From NCBI RefSeq assembly GCF_036365825.1, contig NZ_CP142674.1, forward strand, positions 62,001-126,000: a stretch of 64,000 bases of DNA, given 5' to 3'. Below the pieces are notes generated by a model, which saw nothing but the letters and a program-made list of their open reading frames with translations, did not search any database and was not told where the DNA came from. The position numbers were made by a program, and so were the translations under genes. Shown here piece after piece: positions 37,128 to 63,515 of this stretch. Positions within the stretch are counted from its first letter, which is position 1. The number at the start of each line of letters is the position of its first letter. This stretch comes from Qipengyuania sp. HL-TH1. GTDB lineage: Bacteria; Pseudomonadota; Alphaproteobacteria; Sphingomonadales; Sphingomonadaceae.

Positions 37128-37139
37128 CGCTCGTGACCC

Positions 37140-39777: not shown

Positions 39778-39778
39778 G

Positions 39779-42246: not shown

Positions 42247-42261
42247 GGGCGGTCCTTCCGA

Positions 42262-44196: not shown

Positions 44197-44714
44197 AGGA
44201 TCGCCACTCCGGTTCCAACGAGGCGGTCGCGGCATACGAAGCCGATATGCGAATACCGGCTGTCGAAACCGTCCTTGTGGTGGGTGGCCGCGAACACGCA
44301 ACCGTCGGGCACGACCCCCAAGGGCCCTTCGGTGAGGGCGTCGCCCTTCTTCGTGAGCGGTTTGGTAGAGACGATCCGTTCGCCGTTGACCAGCACGTCG
44401 CGGCCTTCCCGCGTCACGACATCGCCAGGGAGGCCAAAAGCGATCTTGGCAAATGCTCCGGGTTCTTCGCCGAAATACTTCTGCGTGACCGGATCGTGGC
44501 CCGGGTGGAAGATCACGTAGTCGCCGCGATCGGGAAACCGGCCACTCTCGACCAGAAAGGCCCAGTTCGGAAGTGAATCCGTCGCGTTAATCATGAAGGC
44601 GTGGCTTTCGCTCCAGTGCTGCAGCGACGTAACCGCGGTGCCGACGCCGAACAGGGCTGCGATCGCGAGGAGCTTGCTCTTGGTCGACAGGCGCCTGGTT
44701 TCAGTTCTGGACAC
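44193..44714 (-). CDS. S26-type signal peptidase of the transfer system (TrhF/TraF-like)
   Basis: 173 residues from a GTG at 44714, chosen by operon overlap and because upstream residues look like shadow. One N-terminal helix (SKLLAIAALFGVGTAVTSLQ) is followed by the peptidase domain: NATDSLPNWAFLVESGRFPD (the Ser of TDSLP is the expected nucleophile), GDYVIFHPG, then KIAFGLPGDVVTREGRDVLV (the Lys/Gly-Asp box) and CVFAATHHKDGFDSRYSHIG. In related transfer systems such a peptidase processes the pilin precursor for cyclisation. The C-terminus overlaps traW. Confidence 0.85.
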   Translation of the reverse strand: MSRTETRRLSTKSKLLAIAALFGVGTAVTSLQHWSESHAFMINATDSLPNWAFLVESGRFPDRGDYVIFHPGHDPVTQKYFGEEPGAFAKIAFGLPGDVVTREGRDVLVNGERIVSTKPLTKKGDALTEGPLGVVPDGCVFAATHHKDGFDSRYSHIGFVCRDRLVGTGVAIL

Positions 44715-45255
44715 CGCCCTGCCCTCCCCCGTTGGCAGCCATGAACGCCTGCATCTCCTGTTCGACACGCGCGCCCTGGCTCTGCTGAACATCGAGCGAG
44801 GCCTGTGCGATCTGCGGGCGCGGCACCTTCGCGTAGACGGCCGTCTTGACGCTCTGCGTGACGTCCGGCACCTCGCCGCCGATCACCGCCTCGTGGACGA
44901 GAACCACCTTCCCGCTTTTCGAAAGCCCGGCGACCGTTTGGTCCAGCGCGGCCATGAACACCGCCGTCTCCTGAGCTGCCGTCTGTTCATCGGAACTCGA
45001 GCGAGCCTGCGCCTGGAGATATTCGCCGATGATGCCCTGCAGCTGGAGCTGCACGAACTCCTGCCGCCCTCCATCCTGCAAAACGAGGTTCTTAGTGACC
45101 CAGGCTCCCCACATGAAAATGGCGAGGGCAGCGGCGAGCAGGATGATCTCTCGCGGCGAGAGACCGGCGAAACCACGCTTCGCGACGGCCGCCTTCGGCT
45201 TGCGCGCCGAATCATCAGGCGCGCGGAAGGACTGGGTTTCGAACAGATCAGTCAT
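44701..45255 (-). CDS. trbI: Type-F transfer protein TrbI
   Basis: 184 residues from the ATG at 45255. A cytoplasmic start (MTDLFETQSFRAPDDSARKP) is followed by one membrane helix (LSPREIILLAAALAIFMWGA) and a periplasmic TrbI_Ftype domain: VFMAALDQTVAGLSKSGKVV, LVHEAVIGGEVPDVTQSVKT, AVYAKV. The family member of F is about 128 residues; here the N-terminal part and the Gln-rich tail are longer. TrbI affects pilus outgrowth and retraction. It overlaps the next gene's start by 14 bp. Confidence 0.82.
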   Translation of the reverse strand: MTDLFETQSFRAPDDSARKPKAAVAKRGFAGLSPREIILLAAALAIFMWGAWVTKNLVLQDGGRQEFVQLQLQGIIGEYLQAQARSSSDEQTAAQETAVFMAALDQTVAGLSKSGKVVLVHEAVIGGEVPDVTQSVKTAVYAKVPRPQIAQASLDVQQSQGARVEQEMQAFMAANGGGQGGVQN

Positions 45256-45598
45256 TGTCACCTCCAGCGACGTCGAATGCCGAGCGAAGGCTCGCGCGGC
45301 GGAAGAAAGCGATGAGAACGAAGGCGCCGCCGAGAACCGTGAAGACGATCGTCTGGAACTGCGCCTGCCGCGCCGCGTCGGCCGCGAGGAACCGCGCCGC
45401 GAGATTGTCGAGCTGCAACATGGTTCCTGACAGGGTGAAGCTGCCAAGGAGAATGAAGAACAGCGTCGCGACGCCCAGGGTCGCAAGCACGGTCGTGGCG
45501 ATCCAACCTGTCAGCCGGAGGGCAACGACCATTGCGTCCTGACCTCGTTCGACCGGCGCGCGGGTCAGCGCCCGGTGTGCGAGAAGTTGAGCGTTCAT
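45248..45598 (-). CDS. Membrane protein of tra operon, unknown (116 aa)
   Basis: 116 residues with two membrane helices (GWIATTVLATLGVATLFFIL and FQTIVFTVLGGAFVLIAFF) separated by a periplasmic loop. Its ATG overlaps the traC stop by four bases and its end overlaps trbI. I know no F-plasmid homologue; it is probably an inner-membrane component specific to this lineage of conjugation systems. Confidence 0.68.
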   Translation of the reverse strand: MNAQLLAHRALTRAPVERGQDAMVVALRLTGWIATTVLATLGVATLFFILLGSFTLSGTMLQLDNLAARFLAADAARQAQFQTIVFTVLGGAFVLIAFFRRASLRSAFDVAGGDND

Positions 45599-48150
45599 TC
45601 CGCCGCCTCCAGCATCTGATGGGTTTCGGGAAAGGCCACCGCCTCGATGGCATCGTGCATGGGGAAGCCCCGGTGGACGTAGTCCTCGATGTCGGCAAAG
45701 ACGTCCGGGCTCGAAGAGTAGAGAGTGGCCGAGTAGCGATCGAGGACGAGCCGCCCGATGCTTTCCGTGTCCGGCCCGCGGATGAAGACATCCGAATAGT
45801 CCACTCCGTTGCGCTTGAGCGATCGAAGGAGTGCCTCGGTCATGTTGTCCATCTCGAAGCGATCCGAATTGCGGAAGTCCGAGATCGTCTCGCCCTTCTG
45901 CTGGAGGATCAGGAACCAGTCCGAGTTTTCGAGCGCGGCGCGCGAACCTTCGGACTTGTAGTAATCGTGGATGGATTGCGTGGCGGTGATGAGCGAGCCG
46001 CCATACTTGCGGCAGGTGCGCGAATAGGTCTCAACGAAGTCGGCCATCGCCCCGCCCTTCAGCATCTGCCAAGCCTCGTCGATGATGAGCGGCTTGGGGA
46101 TCGCACGGTCCATCCTGCGCATCACCTGCGAAGCGATGAACATGACCGATGTCAGGACCACGCCGCGCAGCTCCTCGCGTGTCGCGAGATCGGAAAGCTC
46201 GAAGACCGTGAGGTCGGCCGAAAGATCGAGATTGGCATCGCCGAGGAAGAACCGCCCGAAGGTGCCGGTCGATGCGAACGGCAGGAGCGAGGTCGCCAGA
46301 TCGTAGGCGAACGGGTGCTCGGGCTGCTTGAGTGCCTCGATAATGTGATCGACCGTTCCGTCGCGACCCTGTGCCTCCCACACGGCATTCACCGCCTGGT
46401 CGATGAGGCCGCGCTCGGTATCGTTAAGCCGCGTCTCGTTGCGCGCCATCTGCGAGATAATTGACTTCAGCATCGCGAGGCAGTCGACCAGATAGTCGTC
46501 GTCGCCTTCGGCCAGCTCCTCGTCGATCATCCGGAACGGGTTGATCGAGATACCGGACGAGAGCTTGAACTCGGTGAAGGTGCCGCCAAGCGCCTTCGCC
46601 ATGTGCTCGAAGCTGCGACCATCGTCGATGACGATCGTCTTGGCGCCGACGCCAGCGAAACTGGCGGTGAGGTCCTGCAAAAGCACCGACTTGCCCGACC
46701 CCGACTTGCCGGCGATCGCGACGTTGTGGTTGCCGGCGCCGTTCTGGAACGGCGACCAGAACTGCGGTTGTCCGCGCCGCCCGACGAACAGGAGGTGCGG
46801 GATGTTCCCGCCGACATATTCACCCTGAATGGGAGCGATCGCCGCGACATTCGCGGAGCGCATCGTGCGCAGACGCTTCATCCGCTTGTAATCGGAATCC
46901 AAGCCGTCGGCGAGCATCAGCGGGAAGTGGGCCATGAAAGCGGGTAGCTGGATGTGGGTCTCGTCGATCAGATCCCATCCGCTCGCCTTGTAGAGCGCCT
47001 TGAGGGTCCGCTCGCACGGTTCTCCACGGCCCTTCGGAGCGAGGATCGAGACGGCATAATAGCAGGAGACCAGCTTCTCCCCCTGCTTCACACGGTCTTG
47101 GATGAACTGCCACTCGGCCGCCTCGGTACGAAGCTTCGGAACGAGCTTCACGCCCTTCCCTTCCGCAAGCGAGCTGGTGCGCGCGAACTTGTAGCCCGCC
47201 TTGCTTTCCGAGGACTCCTGGCCGGGGATGATCCCGCAGACCGTCTGGAGCACCGGGCATGGCAGGTTCAGCTTCGGATTGAAGATATCGCCGATGATCT
47301 TCTGAGTATCCCAGGGAGCCCAGCGGTCGGGGAAGTTGCGCACCGCCATCGTCCGAATATCGAAACGCTCCGGAACGAAGTCCTTCATCTCAGGCACGCC
47401 CTCGACGGAGGTGCCGGTCGGGCGCAGCGACTGCGCATGGAGGATAAGTCGATCCTTCTCGACATGAGTGACGAGATCGCGCCGCACGCACTGCTCGTTG
47501 ATCGGATCGAAGCGGTTGTAGCCAGGCACTTCGTCGCCGGCACCGGTGGACGGCGCCAATATCTCATCGAAGAAACGGATCAGGTCGGTCGGCTCGAACT
47601 GCCTGATCGGCACGTCGATCGATTCCAGCGCGGAAATTATGCCGTCACGCATCGTCACCAGATCGTCGGTGGAGAGGCCGGATCCTTGGCTGATGCCGAC
47701 CGACATGACGACGCGGTAATTGCGGACGAAGAACGGACCGTCGCTCGCGAGGGTCGACCATGCGCCGTTGCGCAGCTTGTCGAGACGGTGCTTGGCGAGC
47801 GTCTGGAAGACGCCCGAAGCTTTGAAGCGCGGCAGAGCCCAGTCCTGCAGCTTCTCTGCGACGCGCGGAGAGGAATAGTTCGTCACGCTGAACTTGGTTC
47901 CGGGCAGGAGAATGTCCGAGAACAGCGAGCTGATGATGTCGTTCACCCGGTCGTTCGCACCGACGAGGGGCGCGAGCTCGAGAATGAAGCCTTTCGACCG
48001 CACCTGATGGAAAATGCGCTTGCCTTCGTCGTAGGAACGATAGCCGAGGTAATGCGCGAGCATGGGAACCTGCGGTGGGGCAGACTTGTGCTCAGGCTTG
48101 CGGCTGTCGCCGACTACCAGGTCCACGATGTTGCTGAATGCTTTCATCAT
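45595..48150 (-). CDS. traC: Type IV secretion ATPase TraC (VirB4 family)
   Basis: 851 residues, the expected length. The N-terminal TraC domain (about 30-300: FHQVRSKGFILELAPLVGAN, SRGF-type middle) precedes the ATPase: Walker A GKSGSGKSVLLQDL near 480, Walker B KPLIIDEAWQML near 690, then RTCRKYGGSLITATQSIHDY and the late motif LEN-SDWFLILQQKGE. TraC powers pilus assembly at the inner membrane. It is followed closely by the 116-residue gene and preceded by traV with 6 bp between. Confidence 0.93.
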   Translation of the reverse strand: MMKAFSNIVDLVVGDSRKPEHKSAPPQVPMLAHYLGYRSYDEGKRIFHQVRSKGFILELAPLVGANDRVNDIISSLFSDILLPGTKFSVTNYSSPRVAEKLQDWALPRFKASGVFQTLAKHRLDKLRNGAWSTLASDGPFFVRNYRVVMSVGISQGSGLSTDDLVTMRDGIISALESIDVPIRQFEPTDLIRFFDEILAPSTGAGDEVPGYNRFDPINEQCVRRDLVTHVEKDRLILHAQSLRPTGTSVEGVPEMKDFVPERFDIRTMAVRNFPDRWAPWDTQKIIGDIFNPKLNLPCPVLQTVCGIIPGQESSESKAGYKFARTSSLAEGKGVKLVPKLRTEAAEWQFIQDRVKQGEKLVSCYYAVSILAPKGRGEPCERTLKALYKASGWDLIDETHIQLPAFMAHFPLMLADGLDSDYKRMKRLRTMRSANVAAIAPIQGEYVGGNIPHLLFVGRRGQPQFWSPFQNGAGNHNVAIAGKSGSGKSVLLQDLTASFAGVGAKTIVIDDGRSFEHMAKALGGTFTEFKLSSGISINPFRMIDEELAEGDDDYLVDCLAMLKSIISQMARNETRLNDTERGLIDQAVNAVWEAQGRDGTVDHIIEALKQPEHPFAYDLATSLLPFASTGTFGRFFLGDANLDLSADLTVFELSDLATREELRGVVLTSVMFIASQVMRRMDRAIPKPLIIDEAWQMLKGGAMADFVETYSRTCRKYGGSLITATQSIHDYYKSEGSRAALENSDWFLILQQKGETISDFRNSDRFEMDNMTEALLRSLKRNGVDYSDVFIRGPDTESIGRLVLDRYSATLYSSSPDVFADIEDYVHRGFPMHDAIEAVAFPETHQMLEAAE

Positions 48151-48156
48151 AGCGGC

Positions 48157-48810
48157 TCACTCCACCACGCCGGGGAACGAAGCGGCCTGACGCCGCGGCT
48201 TCGTCTCACGCGCCGCCAGTCGTTCCGACACCTGTGCTTCGATCGCGGCGATGGGATCGGGTCCTGCCGCTACCGCGACCTCCCTCGGCTGCGCGGCCTG
48301 ACCCGGCGAAGCGCCGACAATGTCCGGCGCGATGGCGAGAAACGGAGGCGCGCTCTCCGCAGCCGCCAGGAGACCCTGATTGCGGGTCGGATGGCGGCCG
48401 CGCATAGCCATCGCGTCCATCGCATCGCCGCGACCGGGCAAGACGGCTTCGGTGCGGACCGTGCGCCGCGCGTGACTCATGCCCGTGGCATCGGTGTAGC
48501 CCGGGAATACGACCGCGAGCTCGTAGCTTGGAGCACTCCTCGCCGTCATCGGTGCAGCTGCGAGGACGGTGTTGTGAACCGGCGCGTCGATCCCGTCATC
48601 CATCTGGTACGGGCCGGCCGGATTGAGCAGGTCGGAGGAACTCGTCTCCTCGATCCGGGAGATCGCGCTGTCGTCGATCACCGTGGAAGGCGCGCACACC
48701 CCGTCGGGGGCGTCGCAGCGAAAGCTGCCGCTCACATTGGTGCCGAGGGTGGTACAGCCGGAGACTAGGCTTCCGAAGACCGCGATGGCGAGGATGGCTT
48801 TGCTGTTCAC
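48157..48810 (-). CDS. traV: Conjugal transfer lipoprotein TraV
   Basis: 217 residues from a GTG at 48810 overlapping the dsbC stop (GTGA). A lipoprotein signal (SKAILAIAVFGSLVSGC, lipobox VSGC) is followed by TTLGTNVSGSFRCDAPDGVC, the conserved short TraV motif with paired Cys. The rest is low-complexity and Ala-rich. TraV is an outer-membrane lipoprotein that joins TraB and TraK in the core complex. Confidence 0.9.
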   Translation of the reverse strand: MNSKAILAIAVFGSLVSGCTTLGTNVSGSFRCDAPDGVCAPSTVIDDSAISRIEETSSSDLLNPAGPYQMDDGIDAPVHNTVLAAAPMTARSAPSYELAVVFPGYTDATGMSHARRTVRTEAVLPGRGDAMDAMAMRGRHPTRNQGLLAAAESAPPFLAIAPDIVGASPGQAAQPREVAVAAGPDPIAAIEAQVSERLAARETKPRRQAASFPGVVE

Positions 48811-49675
48811 GACGCACTCCCTTGAATCCAGCTTTCGAGGAATTCGCGCGGACGGAAGCCGTGGACGACGGCGCCATCCTCGCGGACGATTACGGGGGTT
48901 CCGTTGAAGCCGTGCTTGCGAGCGAAAGCCTCGTTCGCGTCGAGACCGGAGGTGTCGCAATCCGATCCGGTCGTGATCGACCCGCCGTCATAGGCCTGGT
49001 TGACGGCCCGGCGCTTGTCCGGCGAACAGATGACCGCTTCGGAGATGGGGCGGGTGCCGAGCACCGAGATCGGCCGCTCCACGACCTTCACGTTCAACGT
49101 CTCGAGGGTTTCGTGGAGACGCTTGCAGTAGCCGCAGCGGAAATCGCTGAAGACGGTGAGAGTCCTCGCGCCGCGGCCCATGACGACCGCACCGTTTTGC
49201 GGCAGTGCAGCGAGTGCTCGCGGATCGATCTGATCGTCGATCGAGGCGGTGTCTGCGCCTTGCTGCCCCGGCGCTTGGGCGGGATCGGACGATGACGTGT
49301 CCCCCCTCCCCCAATGAGCATATCGGGGTTCATCTCCAGCAGCCGCGCCGCTGTCAGATCCTGCTTCGTCTCCATGTCGTACACGCGGCCGATGATGAGA
49401 TAGCGGGCGCCGTGATCGATGTAGAACAGGTTCTGACGGGCCTGGACCTCACACACCCCCTTGATCTTCTCGCAGTCGATCGCTGTGATCTCGGTCTTTG
49501 GAAGTCGTTCTGCGAGGGCCTTCTCGACCGACGGGCCCGAACTCTGTGCCAGCGCGGCAGCGCCCATTGCGATCCCGCCGCCAGTGGCCAGGATGAGCAG
49601 TCCCTGAAGGACCCGTTTGACACCGCTCCTGTAGCTGTCGCCGCCGGAGGCCGGAAGAATGCGTTGGTTGTTCAT
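48807..49675 (-). pseudogene. dsbC: dsbC (thiol:disulfide interchange) split by a -1 frameshift
   Basis: The N-terminal part (49675 to about 49305: signal region VLQGLLILATGGGIAMGAAA, dimerisation domain LPKTEITAIDCEKIKGVCEV and YIDHGARYLIIGRVYDMETK) reads in one frame. The thioredoxin part (about 49304 to 48807) reads in another: LTVFSDFRCGYCKRLHETLE with active site CGYC, then GTPVIVRE with cis-Pro. The switch lies in GGGGGAGGGGGG (minus strand, 49312-49301); one extra G would restore a 289-residue DsbC. It is either a real inactivating slip, a contingency tract, a -1 ribosomal frameshift, or a homopolymer error. Confidence 0.85.
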
Positions 49676-49680
49676 GAGGC

Positions 49681-50994
49681 TCAGTTCCTGATGAAAGTGC
49701 CGTCAAGGAACACGACCTCGACGCTGGCGCCGGTGGGCATCTCGACGACTGGCTGATATTGCTCGGCGCGCTCGATGAGATATTCGGAGAGCATCTTTCC
49801 GGAATTTTCAGCGCCCCCTCCAAAACCACGGAGGGCAATGTCACCCGCGCTCGGGCTCGGAAGGCGTGAATCGCCATCGCGATCTTGCCCGACCGCCGCT
49901 ATGGGAACACTGAAGGCGCTGTTCACCGCATTCCCGGCGCCACTAACGAGACCGGCAAGGAAGGCTTGCGTCGTGAGCGAACCTTCACGGCTAATGACGC
50001 GGCCGCGAATGCCGACCTTGCCGCCGAACGCGATGAAGCCCTGAACCTCGGACACCGCAAAGCGCCCACCGGGCTGAGCGCACGTCATGCGCTGTAGCTT
50101 CACGTAGACCTTCTCGGAGGAGAGGTCGCCATACGCCGCGCCGTTCACCATGCATCCCTGCACACGCGTGGCGAGAAGGCGCCCCTCGCTGTAAACCGAG
50201 CGCGCGGGCCCGGTGATGCGCAGAAGCACCGGCAGCGGATCGCTCTGGCTACGGGTGTTCGTGGTCGCATCCACCCCCACCACCACGGTCGCTTTCGCGA
50301 TCGAGTTGGGCGGGAGATAGTTCGGCGAATCCGTGTAGACCGCGGGCGACTTGGACGCGTCGATGCGCGACCCGGTGCCGCCATTCGCGCTGAACGACAC
50401 CATCTGGACGTCGTTGCTGCGTCGGGGCGGCTGAGGTGCCGCCGCGGCAGGCGATGAGGAGGGGGCAACCCCCAGCGCCTGCGCGGCGGCCACCGGCCCG
50501 GGAGCACTGGGGCGTGCATTGCCACGGCTCGCCTGCTGACGGAGCTGCTCGTTCTCGCGCTCGTATGCCTCGAGAACCCGCTGGCCATCGCGGGCCATAG
50601 CGGCGTTCTCGTTGCGCAGGCTGTCGACCTGCGACTGAAGCTCCATCATCTGCCCGGCTTGCGCTTCGACGCCCTTAAGCCGCTGGCCTTGGGAATTGAT
50701 CTCGCCCTCGTACATGGCGACCCATTCCTGGTCGACGCGCTGCCGGTTCATGAGAGCATCGGTCGAGACCGTGGTCTCGGTTCCGTCGTCCATCGCCTGC
50801 TCGATCGTGTCGTCGGTATCGAGGACATACATCGACCCGGCGATCGCGATCACGCCGACCAGCCCATACATGAGCATCTTCTGACGCTTCTGCGTCTGAT
50901 CGTTTTCCGCGATCAAGCCACTCTCGTCGAGCTCATCGTGCTCGTCCTGTTCCGCAGCGTCGAGATCCTTGGGTTTGCGCTTCAGGAAATCCAT
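49681..50994 (-). CDS. traB: Conjugal transfer protein TraB (VirB10-like)
   Basis: 437 residues. A cytoplasmic acidic N-terminus (MDFLKRKPKDLDAAEQDEHD) leads to one membrane helix near 38-56 (QKMLMYGLVGVIAIAGSMYV), a coiled coil (about 100-155) and a Pro/Ala linker. The TraB/VirB10 beta-domain is about 200-430: LPPNSIAKATVVVGVDATTN, PVLLRITGPARSVYSEGRLL, VSEVQGFIAFGGKVGIRGRV. It spans the inner membrane and periplasm, linking the TraV/TraK outer core to the inner membrane machinery. It is 6 bp downstream of traK. Confidence 0.93.
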   Translation of the reverse strand: MDFLKRKPKDLDAAEQDEHDELDESGLIAENDQTQKRQKMLMYGLVGVIAIAGSMYVLDTDDTIEQAMDDGTETTVSTDALMNRQRVDQEWVAMYEGEINSQGQRLKGVEAQAGQMMELQSQVDSLRNENAAMARDGQRVLEAYERENEQLRQQASRGNARPSAPGPVAAAQALGVAPSSSPAAAAPQPPRRSNDVQMVSFSANGGTGSRIDASKSPAVYTDSPNYLPPNSIAKATVVVGVDATTNTRSQSDPLPVLLRITGPARSVYSEGRLLATRVQGCMVNGAAYGDLSSEKVYVKLQRMTCAQPGGRFAVSEVQGFIAFGGKVGIRGRVISREGSLTTQAFLAGLVSGAGNAVNSAFSVPIAAVGQDRDGDSRLPSPSAGDIALRGFGGGAENSGKMLSEYLIERAEQYQPVVEMPTGASVEVVFLDGTFIRN

Positions 50995-50999
50995 CTCAG

Positions 51000-51797
51000 T
51001 TACCTTCCTGTGGGGACGACGACATAGGCGGCAGTCGCCTGCCCGCTCGCGAGGTCGCGGTTTGAAATGCTGACGGCGATCGCACCGTCGCCGGCGATGA
51101 GCTCTTCCTGCAGCGTCATGGGCGCCGCGCCGGTGTTCTCGATCCGGAGGACCTTGCCGGTCATGGTGGGGCTGCGATATTCGCTGACCAGCTGCACCTT
51201 GATGTCGCCGACATTGACCGGGGCTCGTGCTGCGTCGCTGATCTCGAAGCCGGTTACGGGACGCTGTTCGAACATCGCACGGACGAGACCTACCGCGCGA
51301 TCGTCGAGTGACGCGGCCTGCAGCGTCTCTGCCTGCGGTTGCGGGTTCTCGATATCCGCATTGGCCACGAAAACCTGCAGCGCACCGTCGCCGGACACCT
51401 GACAGTCGAACTTGTAGACGTAGCCCTTCTGCGTCGTGCCGAAGAACGAGATGTTCGGCTTCGTGTACCCTTCGGGAACCGAGAGATAGATGTCGCCGCG
51501 GGTCGGCTCGTGAACGATCGCGAAGTCTTCCGCCTCGATCCCGGTTTGCACACGGGATACGGCGACGAACTGGTCGTCCTTGAGCGCGATCCGGGTGAGG
51601 TCGGACTTGGAGGCCTGGCAGCGCACCTCCCCGTTATCGACGGCGAGGATGTGTTCCTGTGCGAGCGCGGGGACGGCAGACATCACGAATGCGCCGGCAA
51701 TGAGAGCGGCCCCGCCCAGGCGCGTCAGGTAGCAATCGAGACGCGAGGCGAGAAGGCCGCCCGACACGATCATGAGCGAGGAAATGGCCGGGTTCAT
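51000..51797 (-). CDS. traK: Conjugal transfer protein TraK (VirB9-like secretin)
   Basis: 265 residues. A late signal sequence (LGGAALIAGAFVMSAVPALA, near residues 27-46) suggests the true start may be internal, but the ATG at 51797 overlaps the traE stop by four bases. Mature TraK features are RIALKDDQFVAVSRVQTG, DIYLSVPEGYTKPNISFFG and VYKFDCQV, then the C-terminal beta domain (YRSPTMTGKVLRIENTGAAP). TraK belongs to the outer-membrane core with TraV and TraB. Confidence 0.88.
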   Translation of the reverse strand: MNPAISSLMIVSGGLLASRLDCYLTRLGGAALIAGAFVMSAVPALAQEHILAVDNGEVRCQASKSDLTRIALKDDQFVAVSRVQTGIEAEDFAIVHEPTRGDIYLSVPEGYTKPNISFFGTTQKGYVYKFDCQVSGDGALQVFVANADIENPQPQAETLQAASLDDRAVGLVRAMFEQRPVTGFEISDAARAPVNVGDIKVQLVSEYRSPTMTGKVLRIENTGAAPMTLQEELIAGDGAIAVSISNRDLASGQATAAYVVVPTGR

Positions 51798-52357
51798 TCT
51801 TCCTCTCCTTCTTTCACGACGACGCCGAAACCCTTCAGGCGGAGCGAGACGCCGGTGTATTTCCAGTGGAACTCGAAGACCTTGTGTTCGCGGCGCACAT
51901 CGCGCGAACCCACGATCGTATGGAGGACGCCGCCGACTTGGCTGGTGAGCTCGTCGGGGTTCGTCCTGATCCAGTCGATGGTGACGAACTGGGTGACCTG
52001 CGAGCCTTCCTGCTCCGCCATGATCTCCATCAGCTTCGCCTTGAGCGCGCCGCGCGATTCCGGTGCGGCGATGGCGACGATGCCATCAAGCCAGTATTGG
52101 AGCGTTTCGGGCGAGCGGTTGAGCGCGAGCTGCGCAGTGTCACGGGTCACCGCCTCGAGATATTCGGGCGTGACCGATGAGGAGCTCAGCGTCATTTCGT
52201 TGGAAAGGATCGGCTGCAGCACCACTTCCCGATCGCGGGTCGATGCGGCCGTGAACATCACCACGACGAGGATGCCGAGAACGATGCAGATGAGCGCAAG
52301 AAGGTTGCGCTGTTTCAGCGTCCGTTGTGACGCCTCGTGAGCAAGAGATAGTTCCAT
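51794..52357 (-). CDS. traE: Conjugal transfer protein TraE (VirB5/8-type)
   Basis: 187 residues. A cytoplasmic basic start (MELSLAHEASQRTLKQRNLL) precedes one helix (ALICIVLGILVVVMFTAA), then a periplasmic domain of TraE type: VVLQPILSNEMTLSSSSVTP, EYLEAVTRDTAQLALNRSPE and FEFHWKYTGVSLRLKGFGV. It follows traL with one base between. TraE is an inner-membrane pilus-assembly component. Confidence 0.9.
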   Translation of the reverse strand: MELSLAHEASQRTLKQRNLLALICIVLGILVVVMFTAASTRDREVVLQPILSNEMTLSSSSVTPEYLEAVTRDTAQLALNRSPETLQYWLDGIVAIAAPESRGALKAKLMEIMAEQEGSQVTQFVTIDWIRTNPDELTSQVGGVLHTIVGSRDVRREHKVFEFHWKYTGVSLRLKGFGVVVKEGEEE

Positions 52358-52358
52358 G

Positions 52359-52643
52359 TCAGCCCGCCATCACACGAAGATGAGAAGGCGGAGCGACCTT
52401 CAGACCAAAGAAACCGCCCGGCAGATGCCAATAGGCAAAGTGCAGGACCCAATACATCGAACGCCCGGCTTTAAGTTTGCGATAGAAAAACCATGCAGCG
52501 ACACTGAGGAGAAGTCCGATAACGATGTGCTGCGCGAGAATTCCCCAACCGAACGGAATCAGCATTATGAGGAATTCATCCAGCGTCCAGAACCCGATGA
52601 GCTCGGGGTCGTCGAGATGTCTTGGGATGGAATATTGGTCCAA
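52359..52643 (-). CDS. traL: Conjugal transfer protein TraL
   Basis: 94 residues from a TTG at 52643 (GGAG about 8 nt upstream); the longer open frame contains traA shadow. Pattern: IPRHLDDPELIGFWTLDEFL, then membrane helices (IMLIPFGWGILAQHIVIGLL, LSVAAWFFYRKLKAG) and the conserved tail MYWVLHFAYWHLPGG. TraL is a small inner-membrane protein needed for pilus assembly (VirB3-like). Confidence 0.88.
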   Translation of the reverse strand: MDQYSIPRHLDDPELIGFWTLDEFLIMLIPFGWGILAQHIVIGLLLSVAAWFFYRKLKAGRSMYWVLHFAYWHLPGGFFGLKVAPPSHLRVMAG

Positions 52644-52713
52644 AGGTCGTCTCCGCCAGTCAGGGGGCGGCTGCGTCTCGCTGGCGATCAGCAGCCCGCG
52701 CCCCCGTGGAGAG

Positions 52714-52735
52714 GGTCCGATCGAGCGATCAGACC
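52714..52735 (-). terminator. Hairpin over the traA stop codon
   Basis: On the mRNA strand, arms 52735-52726 and 52723-52714 pair with one mismatch around a 2-nt loop and cover the traA stop. With 85 bp to traL, it could stabilise pilin mRNA or partly terminate transcription so that pilin is made in excess, as is usual for pilin genes. Confidence 0.45.
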
Positions 52736-53046
52736 GTGCCGGTGATCGTTGAGGTGACGATCGGCACGCCGGTGCCGGCACCGACGCCCACCCCGACCGG
52801 GATTGCCACTTGGCCGAGCGAGAAGCGTCCGGAGGCAAGCGCCACGATGCCGCCGGCGAGCGACAGCACGGTGATGATCTTACCGCCTGAGCCTTCGAGG
52901 AAGTCGGTGAACTGCGTTAGCGCGGTGTCGAACGTGGTGTCGGTACCGGCCATCGCGGCGTCGATCCCGAACACGCTCATCCCGGCCACTGCAGCCAGGG
53001 CGACGGCGAGGTTCGCGCCACCCTTTTTGAGATCGAGTGCTTTCAT
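52729..53046 (-). CDS. traA: TraA pilin precursor
   Basis: 105 residues from the ATG at 53046 (AGAAGGG about 7 nt upstream). A long leader (MKALDLKKGGANLAVALAAV, then AGMSVFGIDAAMAG) fits pilin cleavage near AMAG. The mature pilin is about 65 residues with two hydrophobic helices (SGGKIITVLSLAGGIVALAS and QVAIPVGVGVGAGTGV) and an end typical of cyclised or acetylated pilins. It is the first gene of the transfer operon; the promoter must lie in 53047-53397. Confidence 0.85.
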   Translation of the reverse strand: MKALDLKKGGANLAVALAAVAGMSVFGIDAAMAGTDTTFDTALTQFTDFLEGSGGKIITVLSLAGGIVALASGRFSLGQVAIPVGVGVGAGTGVPIVTSTITGTV

Positions 53047-54355: not shown

Positions 54356-54631
54356 GTGAACGAGTCTGCCCTGATAGCTTGGACATCGCTCTACATCGCG
54401 GTCGGCATAATGGCCATCCTCTGCGCACTACTAGCTTCAATCGTCACCGCTTGCGACTGGCGTAGCGGTAACTGGAAGCCGTCCATCACCACCAAGTTCG
54501 ACAAGCTCTTGCTGTTGCCGAAAATCTGGTTCCGCTGGCAGCTCAATTATCTCAAAGGCGCACCGGCGATTCTGCTCATTGCGCTCTACTACGCTTGGTC
54601 GATCGGATTTTCAGTCTTCTGGGATTTCTGA
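54356..54631 (+). CDS. Small membrane protein
   Basis: 91 residues from a GTG (GGGAGGGG about 8 nt upstream). A strong helix (WTSLYIAVGIMAILCALLAS, then IVTAC) and a second near the C-terminus (APAILLIALYYAWSIGFSVF) flank a basic middle. Unknown family. It overlaps the end of the convergent transglycosylase gene by about 20 bp. Confidence 0.6.
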   Translation: MNESALIAWTSLYIAVGIMAILCALLASIVTACDWRSGNWKPSITTKFDKLLLLPKIWFRWQLNYLKGAPAILLIALYYAWSIGFSVFWDF

Positions 54632-55486
54632 TGGGCGGACAAACCTCGCCAGCCGTACCTTCCGAAAGGGGTTGCCCGGGGGCATTGCTGAGGCTGCGCG
54701 GTGCACGGTGTTACCTTGCTGGACAGAGCGCATTATTGTGGACACGTAAGCGCGGGTCTCGCGAAAGGGTGGAATCCCGTTATACTGCTCCACTCGCCCA
54801 GGTCCCGCATTATATGCGGCCAACGCCAATTCCCATTTGCCGAACCGATCGAGTTGCATACGGAGATAGCGCGCACCGCCCGCAAGGTTTTGCTGCAGAT
54901 CCCACGGATCGACAACGCCCAGATCGTCGGCCGTGCCCGGCATCAATTGCGTCAGTCCCATCGCTCCGGCATGGCTTCGCGCATACGGACGGTAGCGGCT
55001 TTCCTGGGCCACCAGGGCATCGAACAGTCTGACGGGAACGCCGGCGGCACAAGCTGCTGAAACAATCTCCTGAAAATATAGCCGACGTCGATATTGCGCC
55101 TCGCTGCCGATGCCGTGCAGCGGGAAATAATCGACTTCGCCGCACCCGGGTGTCGCTTGACCGGCTCTTCGTATTTCCGGGCTAGGATCGAAGGTTGGAA
55201 GCCCCACCCTCATCCAATTGGGTACGTGCAGCGCAGCTTTAGCCGGAACAAATGGGGTCGATGGGCTGGCAGCAGAAGGCTCGCCAAACTCGACATTACG
55301 TCCGTCTTGCTCAAGCCCTTGCGAATGTGGCCTTTCCCGACCAATTGAAGTTGCCACCTCGGACCGAACCGTCGGGACAAGTATCTCGAACGCTTGCTGT
55401 CGAGACGACGTAAAACTTTCGATATGAACCTGTTGCGCGGAAGCTGGGCCGGACAGGGCCAAAACGGCAAAAAGAAGTTTTTTCAT
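54611..55486 (-). CDS. Lytic transglycosylase (SLT domain), conjugation-associated
   Basis: 291 residues from the ATG at 55486 (a further ATG at 55504 adds six). Signal peptide MKKLLFAVLALSGPASAQ, a linker to about 135, then the SLT domain: LFDALVAQESRYRPYARSHA (catalytic Glu in QESRY), GAMGLTQLMPGTADDLGV, ARYLRMQLDRFGKWELALAA and YNAGPGRVEQYNG. Such enzymes open peptidoglycan for a transfer apparatus (VirB1/P19-like). Its place at the edge of the tra region supports this, though it is transcribed on its own. Confidence 0.9.
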   Translation of the reverse strand: MKKLLFAVLALSGPASAQQVHIESFTSSRQQAFEILVPTVRSEVATSIGRERPHSQGLEQDGRNVEFGEPSAASPSTPFVPAKAALHVPNWMRVGLPTFDPSPEIRRAGQATPGCGEVDYFPLHGIGSEAQYRRRLYFQEIVSAACAAGVPVRLFDALVAQESRYRPYARSHAGAMGLTQLMPGTADDLGVVDPWDLQQNLAGGARYLRMQLDRFGKWELALAAYNAGPGRVEQYNGIPPFRETRAYVSTIMRSVQQGNTVHRAASAMPPGNPFRKVRLARFVRPSEIPED

Positions 55487-55504
55487 GACCATACCTTTCG
55501 GCAT

Positions 55505-55668
55505 GGTTTCCTATCGCAATCTCATCATAGAGGGGTTCTGCCAGACCGCAATGTCTAGCTCTGGTTTTCTTTCTCGAGAATGTCTGGTGCGTCAGATGGA
55601 AAAGGCAAAGACTGGGCCGATTGTTGACCGTCCTCTTTTGGTGAGAAATCGGCTAAAGCTACCGTCAA
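55505..55668. other. Region between the transglycosylase gene and the tRNA fragment
   Basis: A short stretch with no convincing gene (a 63-codon frame starting at 55485 has no protein character). It ends abruptly where tRNA sequence starts. Confidence 0.4.
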
Positions 55669-55721
55669 GCAGCTGACTCTTAATCAGCGGGTCCTAGGTT
55701 CAAGCCCTAGTGCATCCACCA
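55669..55721 (+). tRNA. 3' part of a tRNA-Lys(CTT) gene, attachment-site candidate
   Basis: From GCAGCTGACTCTTAATCAGC on, the sequence is the anticodon arm (loop CTCTTAA, anticodon CTT), variable loop, T arm (CTAGG-TTCAAGC-CCTAG) and acceptor 3' strand TGCATCC plus ACCA. The D arm and the 5' acceptor strand (expected GGATGCA) are missing: the preceding sequence does not pair. A tRNA 3' end without its 5' part is the usual footprint of an element integrated at a tRNA gene (att site). The complete tRNA would lie at the other element end, outside this window. Confidence 0.85.
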
Positions 55722-56253: not shown

Positions 56254-57084
56254 CTAAAGCATCTCGAGTGGACGGCGGTCGCGTGGCCGGGGAAATGCCG
56301 CGTCGAGTGTCGCAAGGTCGGCATCGGAGAGGACGATATCTGCGGCTGCGCGGTTCTCCCGCACATGTGCGATCGAACTCGCTTTCGGGATGGCGATGAG
56401 ACCATCGTGCCGCAACGTCCACGAAAGTGCGACCTGCACAGGGGTTGCGCCAACCTGGGCCGCTACTTTGTCGAGGGCGGGATGGCTTGTGAGGCGTCCC
56501 TGCTCGACTGGACTATACGCCATAACCGGTATGTTATGCTCGGCGAGCCACGGCAGCAGATCCAATTCGGGCCCTCGCCGGACCAGATTGTAAAGGATCT
56601 GATCGGTCACGCAGCCATTCCCGCTGGCAGCGACAAGCTCGTCCATATCGTCGGTATCGAGGTTGCTGACCCCCCAATGCCGAATCTTCCCTGCCGATTT
56701 CAGCGCCTTCATTGCCTCCACGGTCTCAGCGAGCGGCACCGATCCCCGCCAGTGGAGAAGGTAGAGGTCCAGCCGGTCGGTGCCGAGCCGCTTCAGGCTC
56801 GCCTCGCACGCACCGGTAAGGCGGGAGCGCGATGCGTTCTGCGGATATGCCTTGCTGACGAGGAACAACTGGTCGCGAACGCTGCCCAGCGCCTCGGATA
56901 TCAGCGTTTCCGCCGCACCATCGCCATACATTTCGGCGGTATCGATGAGCGTCATGCCCAGTTCGACACCGGCGCGTAGCGCGGCGATCTCATCGGATCG
57001 GCGCTCGGCACGTTCGCCCATCTTCCAGGTGCCTTGACCCAGTGAAGGAACCACTTCCCCGCCGGGCAATGTCACGTGTTTCAT
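56254..57084 (-). CDS. Aldo/keto reductase
   Basis: 276 residues, a normal AKR length. The catalytic tetrad is present: Asp48 and Tyr53 (DTAEMYGDG), Lys78 (VSKAYPQ) and His111 (YLLHWRG). The (beta/alpha)8 order continues with WGVSNLDTDDMDEL, QILYNLVRRGPELDLLPWLA, VMAYSPVEQG and the NADPH-site AIPKASSIAHVREN. It reduces aldehydes or ketones with NADPH. GGAGG and GAAAG lie upstream of the ATG at 57084. The TetR gene is 75 bp upstream on the same strand and probably controls it along with the divergent MDR gene. Confidence 0.92.
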   Translation of the reverse strand: MKHVTLPGGEVVPSLGQGTWKMGERAERRSDEIAALRAGVELGMTLIDTAEMYGDGAAETLISEALGSVRDQLFLVSKAYPQNASRSRLTGACEASLKRLGTDRLDLYLLHWRGSVPLAETVEAMKALKSAGKIRHWGVSNLDTDDMDELVAASGNGCVTDQILYNLVRRGPELDLLPWLAEHNIPVMAYSPVEQGRLTSHPALDKVAAQVGATPVQVALSWTLRHDGLIAIPKASSIAHVRENRAAADIVLSDADLATLDAAFPRPRDRRPLEML

Positions 57085-57159: not shown

Positions 57160-57780
57160 TCATATCGCGGCCGGCCATCGATCAAGTGCCATTTTAGCGA
57201 TGGAGAGCAGTTCGTTGATCGTAGCGCCATCGCGCGCCTGAACGGACATGCCTTCCATAACCGTATTGATGAATTTGCCTAGCACGGCCGGATCGGCGTT
57301 GGCCGCAAGCTCGCCCTGCGCGGCGCCGCGTTGCAGACGCTCGATCAGGAGGGCCTCCGCCGCGAGACGCTTGTCTCGCAGCAGGCATTCGATGGCCGCG
57401 GACGCCGGCGAAACGGCTGCCGCAGCCGAATACATGAAGCAGCCGGCCGGCGTTCCAGGTTCCGAGAATGATGACGCCGCTCGTTCCAGCAGGCCTTTGA
57501 CGGCCTCGTAGGTGGACAACGCCGGATCGTTAATGGGTGCATAGAGGTGGACGCTGAACGTCGCGGCGTAGCGCTCGATCACCGCCGCAAACAGCCCCGC
57601 CTTGTTGCCAAACGCCGCATAGAGACTGGCGGCGGCGACGCCAGTCTCCGCCACCAGATCGGCCATCGATGTCGCCTCGTAGCCGCGCTGCCAGAACAGC
57701 CGCACCGCCTTGTCGAGCGCAGCGTCAGTGTCGAACACACGAGGGCGACCTGCGCGGCGACGGGCTTTCGTCTCTGTCAT
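57160..57780 (-). CDS. TetR/AcrR-family regulator
   Basis: 206 residues. The N-terminal HTH (about 18-62: FDTDAALDKAVRLFWQRGYE, then TSMADLVAETGVAAASLYAA and FGNKAGLFAAVI) is typical TetR. The ligand domain includes LSTYEAVKGLLERAASSFSE and GCFMYSAAAAV, where a single Cys (GCFM) could sense electrophiles as in NemR/YjdC-like regulators; that is inference. It diverges from the MDR oxidoreductase gene at 57877 and lies upstream of the AKR gene, both likely targets. Confidence 0.9.
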   Translation of the reverse strand: MTETKARRRAGRPRVFDTDAALDKAVRLFWQRGYEATSMADLVAETGVAAASLYAAFGNKAGLFAAVIERYAATFSVHLYAPINDPALSTYEAVKGLLERAASSFSEPGTPAGCFMYSAAAAVSPASAAIECLLRDKRLAAEALLIERLQRGAAQGELAANADPAVLGKFINTVMEGMSVQARDGATINELLSIAKMALDRWPAAI

Positions 57781-57876: not shown

Positions 57877-58866
57877 ATGAGCCGCATTGTCCGTATCCAC
57901 GAATATGGCGACGCCAGCGTCCTCAGGATTGAAGATGTGGAAGTCCCCGCGCCCGCGGCCGACGAAGTGCAGATCGCGGTGAAGGCGATAGGCATAAACC
58001 GCGCCGAGGTGATGTTCCGCAACCATGCCTACCTTCAGGAAGCCGAGTTCCCGAGCCGCCTTGGCTATGAGGCTGCCGGCACCGTCGTTACGGTCGGCGC
58101 GGACGTGACCGGGATTGCGGAAGGCGAAGCCGTCAGTGTCATCCCCCCGCTCGATATCGCGCGCTGGGGCACTTATGGCGAGGTCGCCAACGTGCCCGCC
58201 CGCGTCGTCGTCAAGCATCCGGCGGCGCTGTCGTTCGAGGAAGCGGCGGCCGTGTGGATGCAGTATGTCACCGCCTGGGGTGCGCTGGTGGAGCAGGCGA
58301 AACTCGGCGAGGGCGATTTCGTCATCGTCACTGCTGCCTCCAGCAGCGTCGGCCTTGCTGCCTTCCAGATTGCGCGGATGGTCGGCGCGACGGTGATCGC
58401 GACGACGCGTACCGGCGCCAAGCGCCAGGACCTGATCGATGCCGGCGCACATCATGTCGTCGCGACCGAGGAAGAGGATCTGGTAGCGAGGGTTATGGAG
58501 ATAACCGATGGTCAGGGTGCGCGCGTGGTGCTCGATCCGGTCGGCGGCCCGTTGCTCGAACTTCTGGCGGCGAGCATGGCGCGCGGCGGCATCCTGCTCC
58601 AATATGGCGCGCTCAGCGACAAGCCGACGCCGTTCCCGTTGTTCTCAGTGCTGGGCAAGAGCCTCACGCTCAAGGGTTATATCTACAGCGAGATCGTCTC
58701 GGACGACGCTGCCCTCGATCGCGCCAAGGCGTTCATCGTGGCGGGTCTGGAATCGGGCGCGCTCAAGCCGCGGATCGCGCGCACCTTCCCGCTCGACGCC
58801 ATCCAGGACGCGCACCGCTTCCTCGAATCGAACGAACAGATCGGCAAGGTCGTCGTTACGGTCTGA
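57877..58866 (+). CDS. MDR-family zinc-independent oxidoreductase (quinone-reductase-like)
   Basis: 329 residues. Opens MSRIVRIHEYGDASVLRIED, typical of the quinone oxidoreductase group of MDR proteins. INRAEVMFR and LGYEAAGTVVTVG mark the GroES-like domain; the catalytic and structural zinc cysteines are absent. The Rossmann domain has VIVTAASSSVGLAAFQIARM near 150 and VVLDPVGGPLLELLAASMAR near 220. NADPH-linked reduction of quinones or enones is likely. AAGGAG lies 8 nt before the ATG. It is divergent from and probably regulated by the TetR gene, and ends at a hairpin at 58877. Confidence 0.9.
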   Translation: MSRIVRIHEYGDASVLRIEDVEVPAPAADEVQIAVKAIGINRAEVMFRNHAYLQEAEFPSRLGYEAAGTVVTVGADVTGIAEGEAVSVIPPLDIARWGTYGEVANVPARVVVKHPAALSFEEAAAVWMQYVTAWGALVEQAKLGEGDFVIVTAASSSVGLAAFQIARMVGATVIATTRTGAKRQDLIDAGAHHVVATEEEDLVARVMEITDGQGARVVLDPVGGPLLELLAASMARGGILLQYGALSDKPTPFPLFSVLGKSLTLKGYIYSEIVSDDAALDRAKAFIVAGLESGALKPRIARTFPLDAIQDAHRFLESNEQIGKVVVTV

Positions 58867-59061: not shown

Positions 59062-59352
59062 ATGCCACATTCATCAGAAGACAAGAAGCGCGCCATCACA
59101 CGCTTGCGGCGTATCAAGGGTCAGGCGGACGCTCTGGAACGCGCGATCGAAGCGGGGGCCGATTGCGCTCCCCTGCTGCAGCAAATCGTCGCCATGCGTG
59201 GTGCGACAAATGGACTGATGGCAGAAGTGATGGAGAGTCATCTCAGGGAAACATTCGGCGCGGGCGCAGATCGGGCCGTCGGAGGCGCAGGTGGCGATCT
59301 CGATGACGGCGTGGAGGGCGTCATGAAGATTTTGCGGACTTATCTTAAATGA
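59062..59352 (+). CDS. frmR: Formaldehyde-sensitive repressor FrmR (CsoR/RcnR family)
   Basis: 96 residues of three-helix CsoR/RcnR type: KKRAITRLRRIKGQADALER, AIEAGADCAPLLQQIVAMRG, ATNGLMAEVMESHLRETF. Cys35 and His60 are the FrmR sensor residues that are cross-linked by formaldehyde, and Pro/Met at the start (MPHSSEDKKR) matches the Pro2-Cys35 sensor site. It normally represses the formaldehyde detoxification genes until formaldehyde is bound. GGGGAG lies about 6 nt before the ATG. It is upstream of frmA on the same strand. Confidence 0.92.
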   Translation: MPHSSEDKKRAITRLRRIKGQADALERAIEAGADCAPLLQQIVAMRGATNGLMAEVMESHLRETFGAGADRAVGGAGGDLDDGVEGVMKILRTYLK

Positions 59353-59515: not shown

Positions 59516-60676
<1,161 letters not shown>

Positions 60677-60854: not shown

Positions 60855-63515
60855 TTGAAGAACAAGGATACTAAGGCGACGACGCCGGCCACCGTTGCTG
60901 GGCATGCGGGGCCGCCCGATTGCGTGCAGGTTCGCGGAGCGCGCCAGAATAATCTCAAGAATATAGACGTCGATGTACCGCGCGACGCCTTCGTGGTGTT
61001 CACCGGTATATCGGGGTCGGGCAAGTCATCGCTCGCGTTCGGCACCCTCTATGCCGAAGCCCAGCGGCGTTATCTGGAATCGGTTGCACCCTATGCCCGT
61101 CGGCTGATCGACCAGGCCGGCGTGCCGGAGGTCGACGCGATCGACGGTTTGCCGCCTGCGGTCGCGTTGCAGCAGCAACGCGGCTCGGCCAACGCGCGAT
61201 CCTCGGTCGGCAGCGTGACGACGCTCTCCAGCCTAGTGCGGATGCTCTATTCCCGCGTCGGAGAATATCCGCGCCATCAGCCGATGCTCTTTGCGGAGGA
61301 TTTCTCCCCCAACACGGTCGCCGGCGCCTGCCCGACCTGCCACGGCATCGGGCGCGTCTATGACGCGACCGAAGAAACGATGGTTCCTGACGACAGCCTC
61401 ACCATTCGCGACCGGGCGATCGCCGCCTGGCCGACCGCCTGGCATGGGCAGAACCTGCGCGATATCCTCGTTTCGCTCGGCTATGACGTCGATAAGCCGT
61501 GGCGCGACCTGCCGAAAAAGGATCGCGACTGGATCCTCTTCACTGAAGAGTCGCCGACGGTGCCGGTCTATGCGGGCCTGACGCCCGAACAGACACGGAC
61601 GGCCCTCAAGCGCGGCATGGAGCCGAGCTACCAGGGCACCTTCACCGGCGCGCGCCGCTATGTACTGGAAACCTTCGCCAACACGAAAAGCGCGCTGATG
61701 AAGAAGCGCGTCTCGCAATATATCATCGGCCGCGATTGCCCGACCTGCGACGGCAAGCGCCTGAAGCGCGAAGCCCTGTCCGTGAAGTTCGCGGGCCTCG
61801 ACATCGCCGAGTTCGGCGACCTGACGGTGTTGAAACTCCGGGACTTGCTCACGCCCGTCGCGCATGGCGAATACGGGGGCGCCGCGGCGGTCCCGAAGGG
61901 CCATGTCCTCGGCAAGGCGGCCCGCGATGCGGCGGTCGAACGGCGAGTCGCGGCAGGTGGTTCGGCGCACAAGGCTGCGCCCGACGTGCGCCGCACGCCC
62001 AATCTTTCCGATGAAAAGCGGGTCGCCGCACAGCGTCTCGCCTGCGAATTGATCGAGCGGCTGGACCCACTGATCGATCTTGGCCTTGGCTACATTTCGC
62101 TCGACCGCAGCACGCCGACGCTCTCCTCCGGAGAGCTGCAGCGCTTGCGGCTTGCCACGCAATTGTCGTCACAGCTTTTCGGCGTGGTCTATGTGCTTGA
62201 CGAGCCTTCGGCAGGGTTGCACCCGGCAGATGGCGAAGCCTTGCTCACCATTCTCGAGCGTCTCAAGGCGGCGGGCAACTCCCTGTTCGTCGTCGAACAT
62301 GATCTCGACGTGATCCGCCGCGCGGAATGGCTCGTCGATGTCGGGCCGGGAGCCGGGGAAAAGGGTGGTGAAGTCCTCTACAGCGGGCCGATAGAAGGGC
62401 TTGCCGACGTCGAGACTTCGATCACCCGCCGCTACCTGTTCGCAGAGCCGCTGCGCAGTGAGCGCACACCGCGCGACCCCAAGGCATGGCTACGCCTGGA
62501 AGGGATCAGGCGGAACAATCTCCATGGGCTCGACGTCGAGTTTCCCATCGGCTGCTTGACCGCTGTCACCGGCGTTTCGGGATCGGGCAAATCCAGTCTT
62601 GTCAGTCAGGCGCTGCCCGAACTCGTCACGGAACACCTCGGCGGCTCCCCCGTGGCCGAGGAGGAGGATATCGATCCGCTGCTCGATGTTGCGCAGAACG
62701 ACACTGAAGGGCGCATTGTCGCAGGCATGGAGCATGTTCGCAGGCTGGTGCAGGTCGATCAGAAACCAATCGGCCGCACGCCGCGCTCGAACCTAGCCAC
62801 CTACAGCGGCATGTTCGACCATGTGCGACGGATCTTCGCTGATACGCCGCTCGCCCGCCGGCGGCACTACAGCCCGGGAAGGTTCTCGTTCAACGTCCCG
62901 CAAGGCCGCTGCCCTGTGTGCGAGGGCGAGGGATACGTCATGGTGGAGCTGCTGTTCCTGCCGAGCGTTTTTGCCCCGTGCTCGACCTGTCATGGCTCTC
63001 GCTACAACCCGCAAACGCTCGAAGTCGAGTGGAACGGGCGCAATATCGCCCAGGTGCTCGAACTGACGGTCGACGATGCGTGCGATTTCTTCGCTGGCGA
63101 GCCATCTGTGATGCGCTCCCTCGACGTGTTGCGGGAGATCGGTCTTGGCTATCTGAGGCTCGGTCAGCCCGCGACCGAACTGTCTGGCGGGGAGGCGCAG
63201 CGCATCAAGCTGGCGACTGAACTGCAACGCGCTCAACGCGGCAACACGATCTACATCCTCGACGAGCCAACTTCGGGGCTTCACCCCTCCGATGGCGACC
63301 GGCTGATGCAACACCTGCAGGGCCTCGTAAACGCCGGCAATACCGTCGTAGTCGTTGAACATGACATGCGCGCCATCGCGCAGGTGGACTGGATCATCGA
63401 CCTGGGACCGGGGGCCGGGGAAGACGGGGGCCGTATCGTTGCCAGCGGCGTCCCTGGCGTCGTTGCGGAAGCGGAAGGCAGTCTGACCGGCCGCTATCTC
63501 AAGGCGGCGATGTAG
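60855..63515 (+). CDS. Class II UvrA (UvrA2-like) ABC ATPase
   Basis: 886 residues from a TTG at 60855 (AGGAAG 5 nt upstream). Two UvrA ATPase halves: Walker [13 protein letters not shown] (about 50) and [12 protein letters not shown] (about 575); signatures [10 protein letters not shown] and [11 protein letters not shown]; Walker [11 protein letters not shown] and [10 protein letters not shown]; zinc motifs CPTCDGKRL and CPVCEGEGY with CSTCHGS. After [13 protein letters not shown] it goes straight to [20 protein letters not shown], lacking the roughly 120-residue UvrB-binding domain of UvrA1, the mark of class II. Such proteins are linked to drug and DNA-damage tolerance and probably act outside the UvrBC pathway. 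The frmA neighbour suggests a carbonyl-stress role. Confidence 0.9.

Follow-up and report, generated by a model that had tools for sequence, protein, structure and literature searches.

A probable relic attachment scar from tRNA-Lys(CTT), carried within an apparently mobile carbonyl block on a Qipengyuania plasmid

A 3' fragment of a tRNA-Lys(CTT) gene on a plasmid of Qipengyuania sp. HL-TH1 is, in the explanation that we favor with some reserve, the relic attachment scar of a tRNA-Lys genomic island that now rides as a passenger in a mobile block of carbonyl-metabolism genes. The comparisons set out below indicate that the unit carrying the fragment is most likely this block on its right, not the conjugation region on its left. 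A first-pass annotation had taken the fragment as marking one end of an integrated element, an interpretation that is partly supported by our analysis. The DNA studied here (the window, a stretch of 64,000 nt) corresponds to positions 62001–126000 of contig C1 (133,762 bp) in a genome of two contigs and 3,325,063 bp. The replicon is the complete circular plasmid NZ_CP138852.1 (133,762 bp) of Qipengyuania sp. HL-TH1, identical in the stretches compared, and its relaxase is of the MOBF type.

Results

The plasmid backbone to the left, the fragment and the leader preceding it are located as follows:

34308..53046, minus strand: F-type conjugation (tra) locus, plasmid backbone (TraE, K, C, U, N, F, H, G and others)
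54611..55486, minus strand: lytic transglycosylase, the last backbone gene common to plasmid pWH01K before the cargo site
55613..55668, plus strand: 56-bp leader linked to the fragment, with a sharp left boundary at TGGGCCG
55669..55721, plus strand: tRNA-Lys(CTT) 3' part from anticodon arm to CCA, without 5' half; a relic, non-functional as a tRNA

The segment 55668–55721 reads AGCAGCTGACTCTTAATCAGCGGGTCCTAGGTTCAAGCCCTAGTGCATCCACCA and, at 53–54 nt, comprises the anticodon arm (loop CTCTTAA, anticodon CTT), the variable loop, the T arm, the 3' acceptor strand and CCA. ARAGORN reported no tRNA gene in the window, and Rfam aligned 55651–55718 at 28.8 bits, just below its 29-bit cut-off, with three acceptor pairs flagged as non-standard; judged by both programs, the complete cloverleaf of a functional tRNA-Lys gene is lacking. 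Genome-wide, 45 matches to the tRNA model comprise 44 chromosomal ones above the cut-off and the plasmid fragment as the one below. That the fragment is real and not a chance similarity is confirmed by its match to the chromosomal tRNA-Lys gene (E = 3.4e-20) and by the chance expectation of 0.01 for its 20-nt core with up to 3 mismatches in the window. It differs from its own chromosomal counterpart, which ARAGORN reports as intact, at 2/54 positions; among 26 intact tRNA-Lys genes (the own gene plus 25 loci, L014–L038, ranking high in a search of 147 genomes), one differs from it at 1/54, 24 including the own gene at 2, and one at 3. The first-pass description of a 3' fragment of the attachment-site type standing without its 5' part is therefore borne out by the sequence itself, ARAGORN, Rfam and the genome match.

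Loss of the 5' half from a decayed duplicate tRNA-Lys gene, unconnected with site-specific integration, would be another origin, and the weak 5' half aligned by Rfam at 55651–55668 lends it some support. We rate this origin as distinctly improbable, considering that the same non-tRNA leader precedes the tRNA part in 5/5 copies and that island-type tRNA-Lys fragments are frequent in the family, as detailed below.

When the whole genome was searched with 55660–55725, two places were found, one per replicon: the fragment and the chromosomal tRNA-Lys gene. The search revealed neither an intact tRNA-Lys gene nor a second att copy on the plasmid. The expectation that both should lie at the far end of the element failed, as the replicon is a plasmid, the intact gene is chromosomal and the other end of the block carries no att copy; with just two genomic places, one per replicon, pairing of the fragment with a copy at the far end of its own replicon was rejected. 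Inspection of the genes on both sides showed no integrase gene next to the fragment.

To the right of the fragment lies a cargo block of 16.2 kb, spanning 18587 to about 34770 in record coordinates and 117613..133762..34 in contig C1:

55613..64000, no strand: the part of the block within the window; it runs on past the window and across the contig end as far as contig position ~34
56254..57084, minus strand: aldo/keto reductase, the gene that opens the cargo block
57160..57738, minus strand: TetR-family regulator
57877..58866, plus strand: zinc-dependent alcohol dehydrogenase
59062..59352, plus strand: metal/formaldehyde-sensitive repressor (as annotated)
59567..60676, plus strand: S-(hydroxymethyl)glutathione dehydrogenase
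60924..63515, plus strand: UvrA-family excinuclease subunit

The earlier assignment is correct in placing mobile and conjugation genes on the left of the fragment and carbonyl genes on its right. The idea that the fragment marks an element's end stands insofar as it lies near the edge of a mobile unit; this unit is, however, the right-hand carbonyl block, and the fragment sits 56 bp inside its left end. About 530 bp to the right of the scar (window 55722–56253) are devoid of a convincing gene. The possibility of an integrase remnant was considered for the 539 bp right of the fragment, where stop-to-stop pieces were read by eye only and none was recognized.

The block recurs in two other genomes. 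Contig C21 (25 kb) of Qipengyuania citrea (G017) contains the whole block including the scar in one alignment with 93.3% identity over 16,199 columns, and a 2.97-Mb contig of an uncultured Erythrobacter (G048) contains it in four pieces (92.9–94.3%, one 161-bp piece 85.7%). Both block ends are the same on the plasmid, in G017 and in G048, and the outer flanks differ each time (the G017 contig holds just 3.0 kb left of the block). In G048 the block adjoins a tRNA-Ser gene together with genes for an AlpA-like protein and for an integrase that has an arm-binding domain; it probably lies in a tRNA-Ser island there, as judged from one end. Around the tRNA-Lys gene, the HL-TH1 chromosome shares 83.3% identity with G017 over 18.7 kb of alignment; for G048 the value is 78.0% over 8.0 kb, with a second stretch of 82.2% over 1.0 kb. 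Set against 83% and 78% in the single chromosomal region examined, the ~93% identity of the block points to its horizontal transfer after the species split. We would be dealing with a metabolic block that moves on its own and occurs both on a plasmid and on a contig of chromosome size. Inspected by eye, the block ends showed no convincing terminal inverted repeats or target duplications. The outer flanks led to no empty site either: the left flank of G048 gave weak matches in two other genomes (3/60 including itself), its right flank led to AlpA-like gene loci (10/60 including itself), and the left flank of G017 gave short repeat matches only (4/59 including itself).

Comparison with pWH01K (CP115967.1) separated the fragment from the transfer genes. 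This plasmid matches the tra side at 96–97% up to window position 55638, with mismatches starting at ~55620 within the first leader bases, and lacks the fragment; similarity returns at contig position 11, at a level of 98%, where a tyrosine recombinase gene adjoins with its 3' end. In between, the site is not empty but filled with other cargo, annotated as cytochrome P450, aldehyde dehydrogenase, cation transporter and multicopper oxidase. The fragment as a part of the tra region is ruled out by this tra region at 96–97% without it. In the first-pass annotation, the lack of a second copy elsewhere and occurrence of the same fragment at this place in genomes lacking the transfer genes were to count against its own reading, and this is largely what we see: the genome yielded no second fragment, and G017 and G048 have the fragment with its right-hand neighbors and, in the DNA compared, no transfer genes beside it. 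In plasmid-related contigs of G003 and G022, the transglycosylase gene is matched at 72% and leader and fragment are absent beside it. Contig C2 of G048, which encodes a related recombinase and matches the transglycosylase gene distantly, probably represents a related plasmid carried elsewhere in that genome. A conspecific genome (G147), searched with window 54600–57000, gave a tRNA-Lys-like place and one 31-bp match, nothing else. The neighbors of the lytic transglycosylase gene (54611–55486) differ among the HL-TH1 plasmid, pWH01K, an Aurantiacibacter plasmid and Porphyrobacter pYT40; the place adjoining it may serve more widely in this plasmid family as a site for cargo.

How common are integrations at this tRNA? 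A tRNA-Lys search gave a match in 102/147 genomes (own included). In 15/147 (own included; read from the table), a tRNA-Lys-like match was accompanied by a shorter fragment within 60 kb on the same contig, an arrangement usual for islands; the count becomes 14 without G038, whose second match starts only 2 nt later, it leaves out a tandem pair in G066, and it takes in tRNA-Lys-like matches irrespective of whether the gene is intact. On this basis, tRNA-Lys(CTT) appears to be a site of repeated integration in Erythrobacteraceae. These island-type fragments start at positions equivalent to 55670–55678 and do not align to the leader, which would make the plasmid scar one of another type. In G048, two such tRNA-Lys matches (1130347 and 1147928) enclose an integrase gene ~0.7 Mb from the block, and this integrase is distantly alike (26%) to that beside the tRNA-Ser gene. 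No candidate donor emerged, as none of the islands found joins this leader to an intact tRNA-Lys gene; this, the differing type of scar, the absence of an integrase remnant recognizable by eye and the lack of empty sites for the G017 and G048 insertions speak against the preferred reading.

Leader and fragment together form a 109-bp pair that aligns without gaps in five genomes, namely the HL-TH1 plasmid, G017, G048, G002 and G067. Relative to the intact consensus, the tRNA parts show 2, 1, 7, 3 and 7 differences, respectively, among 54 positions, and the anticodon loop is altered in the G048 and G067 copies; by these counts, the tRNA part is drifting across the five copies. G002 (an Erythrobacter MAG) and G067 share just 113 and 109 bp with the plasmid region, with other DNA on both sides (20 kb compared), the former copy adjoining a Type ISP restriction enzyme gene and the latter lying among TonB-receptor genes. 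A scan of genome_contigs (84,980 species) with the leader pattern yielded 3 stretches, on contigs matching those of G002, G017 and G048 in length, and viral contigs yielded 0 matches. One could take the 109 bp as a small dispersed, tRNA-derived non-autonomous repeat that came to lie at the block end. Gapless alignment in five genomes, restriction of the G002/G067 similarity to about 110 bp within other DNA, and the tRNA part found in the G002, G017 and G048 copies, which the leader scan apparently returned, would fit such an element. We nevertheless consider it unlikely, given five known copies only, one per genome, no target duplication seen, and the fact that an island end joined to a tRNA 3' end would look alike. 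The preferred reading as an island scar has its own difficulty here: it does not by itself explain why the 109-bp unit stands without the block in G002 and G067.

Could the fragment still be a working attP, through which the plasmid, or the block as a circle, integrates at the chromosomal tRNA-Lys(CTT) gene? The 52/54 positions kept, the report of an integrative plasmid with a tRNA attB in a sphingomonad (PMC3516476) and the tyrosine recombinases present on the plasmid would agree with such a role. The closest of these recombinases, however, is encoded at contig 93–1217, ~16 kb from the fragment round the circle, and none adjoins it; although it borders the other end of the block, this gene lies outside the block and belongs to the plasmid backbone common to pWH01K. 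The plasmid recombinases also gave no match to an arm-binding domain, unlike the G048 integrase adjoining tRNA-Ser. In addition, the fragment is decayed in G048 and G067, and the first 69 bp to its right are matched in 3/147 genomes (own, G017, G048), in none of them beside tRNA-Lys. A current attP function thus appears very unlikely to us, and we retain the interpretation as a relic.

Further mobile and defense-related genes on the plasmid include a recombinase relic at window 27630–28875 (plus strand), ~27 kb from the tRNA fragment and related to the recombinase at 3961–5163 and apparently frameshifted, the two parts of the relic matching in different frames; an IS110-family transposase gene at 29327–30349 (plus strand); and an MmeI-like restriction-modification enzyme at 22758–25784 (minus strand). 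According to the annotation of the plasmid record, a CBASS phospholipase and a Swt1-HEPN protein are encoded as well.

The right end of the block lies inside a short repeat, termed R here, roughly CCGAAATTAGGGCGCAAAGCNGNC, with an inverted arm recognized by eye ~45 bp upstream. A model derived from 13 right-end-type (B) copies, all located outside the block, finds the right ends in G048 (E 3e-8), G017 (6e-7), pWH01K (1e-6) and the HL-TH1 plasmid (4e-5); in the controls, the best E was 1.5 for five random sequences of plasmid dinucleotide make-up and 0.8 for five 20-kb chromosomal stretches. Additional copies occur on the G017 contig at 552–606 (E 6.5e-6) and at window 5197–5256 (minus strand; E 2.6e-7; 5195–5257 at its longest), 32–33 bp past the stop of a further recombinase gene:

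3961–5163: second tyrosine recombinase gene

This copy has the same orientation relative to its recombinase as the block-end R has to the other recombinase. With up to 3 mismatches allowed, a 22-base R pattern has a single match in the HL-TH1 genome, namely the copy at the end of the block. R stands by the 3' end of a plasmid recombinase gene in 7 Erythrobacteraceae loci (HL-TH1 plasmid, pWH01K, the Aurantiacibacter plasmid, Porphyrobacter pYT40, G003, G022 and G048 contig C2), where Aurantiacibacter, G003 and G048 C2 were seeds of the model used and G022 shares 99.8% identity with Aurantiacibacter. The best recombinase locus of G075 showed no copy of R. As the recombinase's own site in all sphingomonads R was rejected, being absent at 5/5 Sphingomonadaceae loci fetched (5/34 records). 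It also lies ~50 bp before AlpA-like genes at 12/15 distinct places searched (18 loci less 3 duplicates), of which 5/12 were seeds and two are weak (E 0.003 and 0.007).

In several pairs of closely similar loci, similarity stops inside R: HL-TH1 plasmid/pWH01K (99.8%), Aurantiacibacter/G003 (85%), two G022 loci (99.7%), two G028 loci (91.7%), G002 C38/G022 C6 (85%), G025/G013 (83%) and G048/G020 (83%). There are counter-pairs alike through R for at least 1.3 kb, namely L074, L077 and L081 among themselves and Aurantiacibacter/G022, and most pairs of ~72% identity lose similarity past R, in or near the AlpA-like gene, and are uninformative. Four contigs of G022 (C6, C15, C18 and C19; loci L087, L086, L081 and L073) contain equal-scoring matches to the AlpA-like gene region, and L081 and L087 share 99.7% identity starting within R, with no likeness beyond it. 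In Erythrobacteraceae plasmids and islands, R might be a cargo-exchange site located next to the tyrosine recombinase or AlpA-like gene, with a recombinase that acts at R taking up and swapping multi-gene blocks, in one of which the scar is carried; at present this is a speculative proposal to which we lend little credence.

At the left end of the block, a further match was noted:

55600..55651, plus strand: resemblance of the left end to a dispersed, degenerate repeat of intergenic regions (A-type motif)

This match appears only with a model that includes A-type seeds and is partly circular, as the seeds of the model that finds the left end were chosen for their likeness to it. The B-only model, which recovers the right ends, misses the left end (G017 left end at E 0.93; that of the plasmid absent among hits up to E 10), and identity of the two end repeats was rejected; by sequence, the kinship of the left end to R is weak.

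Discussion

The course of events that we favor, as the simplest account, would begin with a genomic island that integrated at the 3' end of tRNA-Lys(CTT) and left an attL/attR-type scar. Leader, scar and the 475 bp to its right would then have become joined to the left end of the carbonyl cluster, as suggested by the other plasmids listed, whose similarity to this cluster starts at 56197 or later. The block may subsequently have entered at least three different settings in one piece, i.e. the F-type plasmid, the G048 contig beside integrase and tRNA-Ser genes, and the G017 contig, possibly by recombination at repeat copies at its ends, with the fragment as a passenger presumably devoid of a current role. 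The scar is ordinary in kind and useful in detail. It warns against a frequent conclusion, in that the presence of a tRNA fragment next to transfer genes does not have to mean that the transfer element ends there. Our literature search, which left subscription journals mostly outside its coverage, found no paper on the plasmid, the block, the scar or R.

Tyrosine-integrase islands that insert at tRNA 3' ends carry a 3' fragment of the tRNA gene as their distal att copy. The plasmid fragment resembles such copies in being a tRNA 3' part that ends at CCA. It differs in residing on a plasmid, without an intact tRNA gene or second att copy on the same replicon, in having no adjacent integrase gene, and in lying inside a block that moves with other ends.

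As to the cargo, many other plasmids match the aldo/keto reductase-to-UvrA stretch or part of it. Among the best 30 of 62 records, and setting NZ_CP138852.1 aside, the cluster-matching plasmids start at 56197 or later, without leader, scar and the 475 bp. On a Sphingomonas naphthae plasmid, the genes from aldo/keto reductase through LysR are arranged similarly, with differences between the SDR and LysR genes.

R shares with the REP-type repeats described in the RepRanger survey (PMC12306157) that it is short, dispersed and intergenic, with inverted-repeat character (by eye). Unlike REPs as portrayed there, it occurs once in the host genome by the strict pattern, and its copies adjoin recombinase or AlpA-like genes. 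The proposed exchange at R would be somewhat like that of an integron, but with whole operons.

A further parallel is pPDL2, an integrative mobilizable plasmid of Sphingobium fuliginis with a tRNA-Ser gene as attB; it has sequence identity to the tRNA 3' end, and its attP, at the 3' end of int1, worked in an assay (PMC3516476). Both are sphingomonad plasmids with a tRNA 3'-end sequence and a tyrosine recombinase. The pPDL2 attP adjoins the integrase gene (PMC3516476), whereas the HL-TH1 fragment is ~16 kb from the nearest recombinase gene, the 3' end of which holds R instead of the tRNA fragment. The working attP described for pPDL2 at an integrase gene 3' end (PMC3516476) makes R at the recombinase gene 3' end worth testing, but no more than that; if the exchange proposal is true, R would be a testable site for cargo exchange among these marine bacteria.
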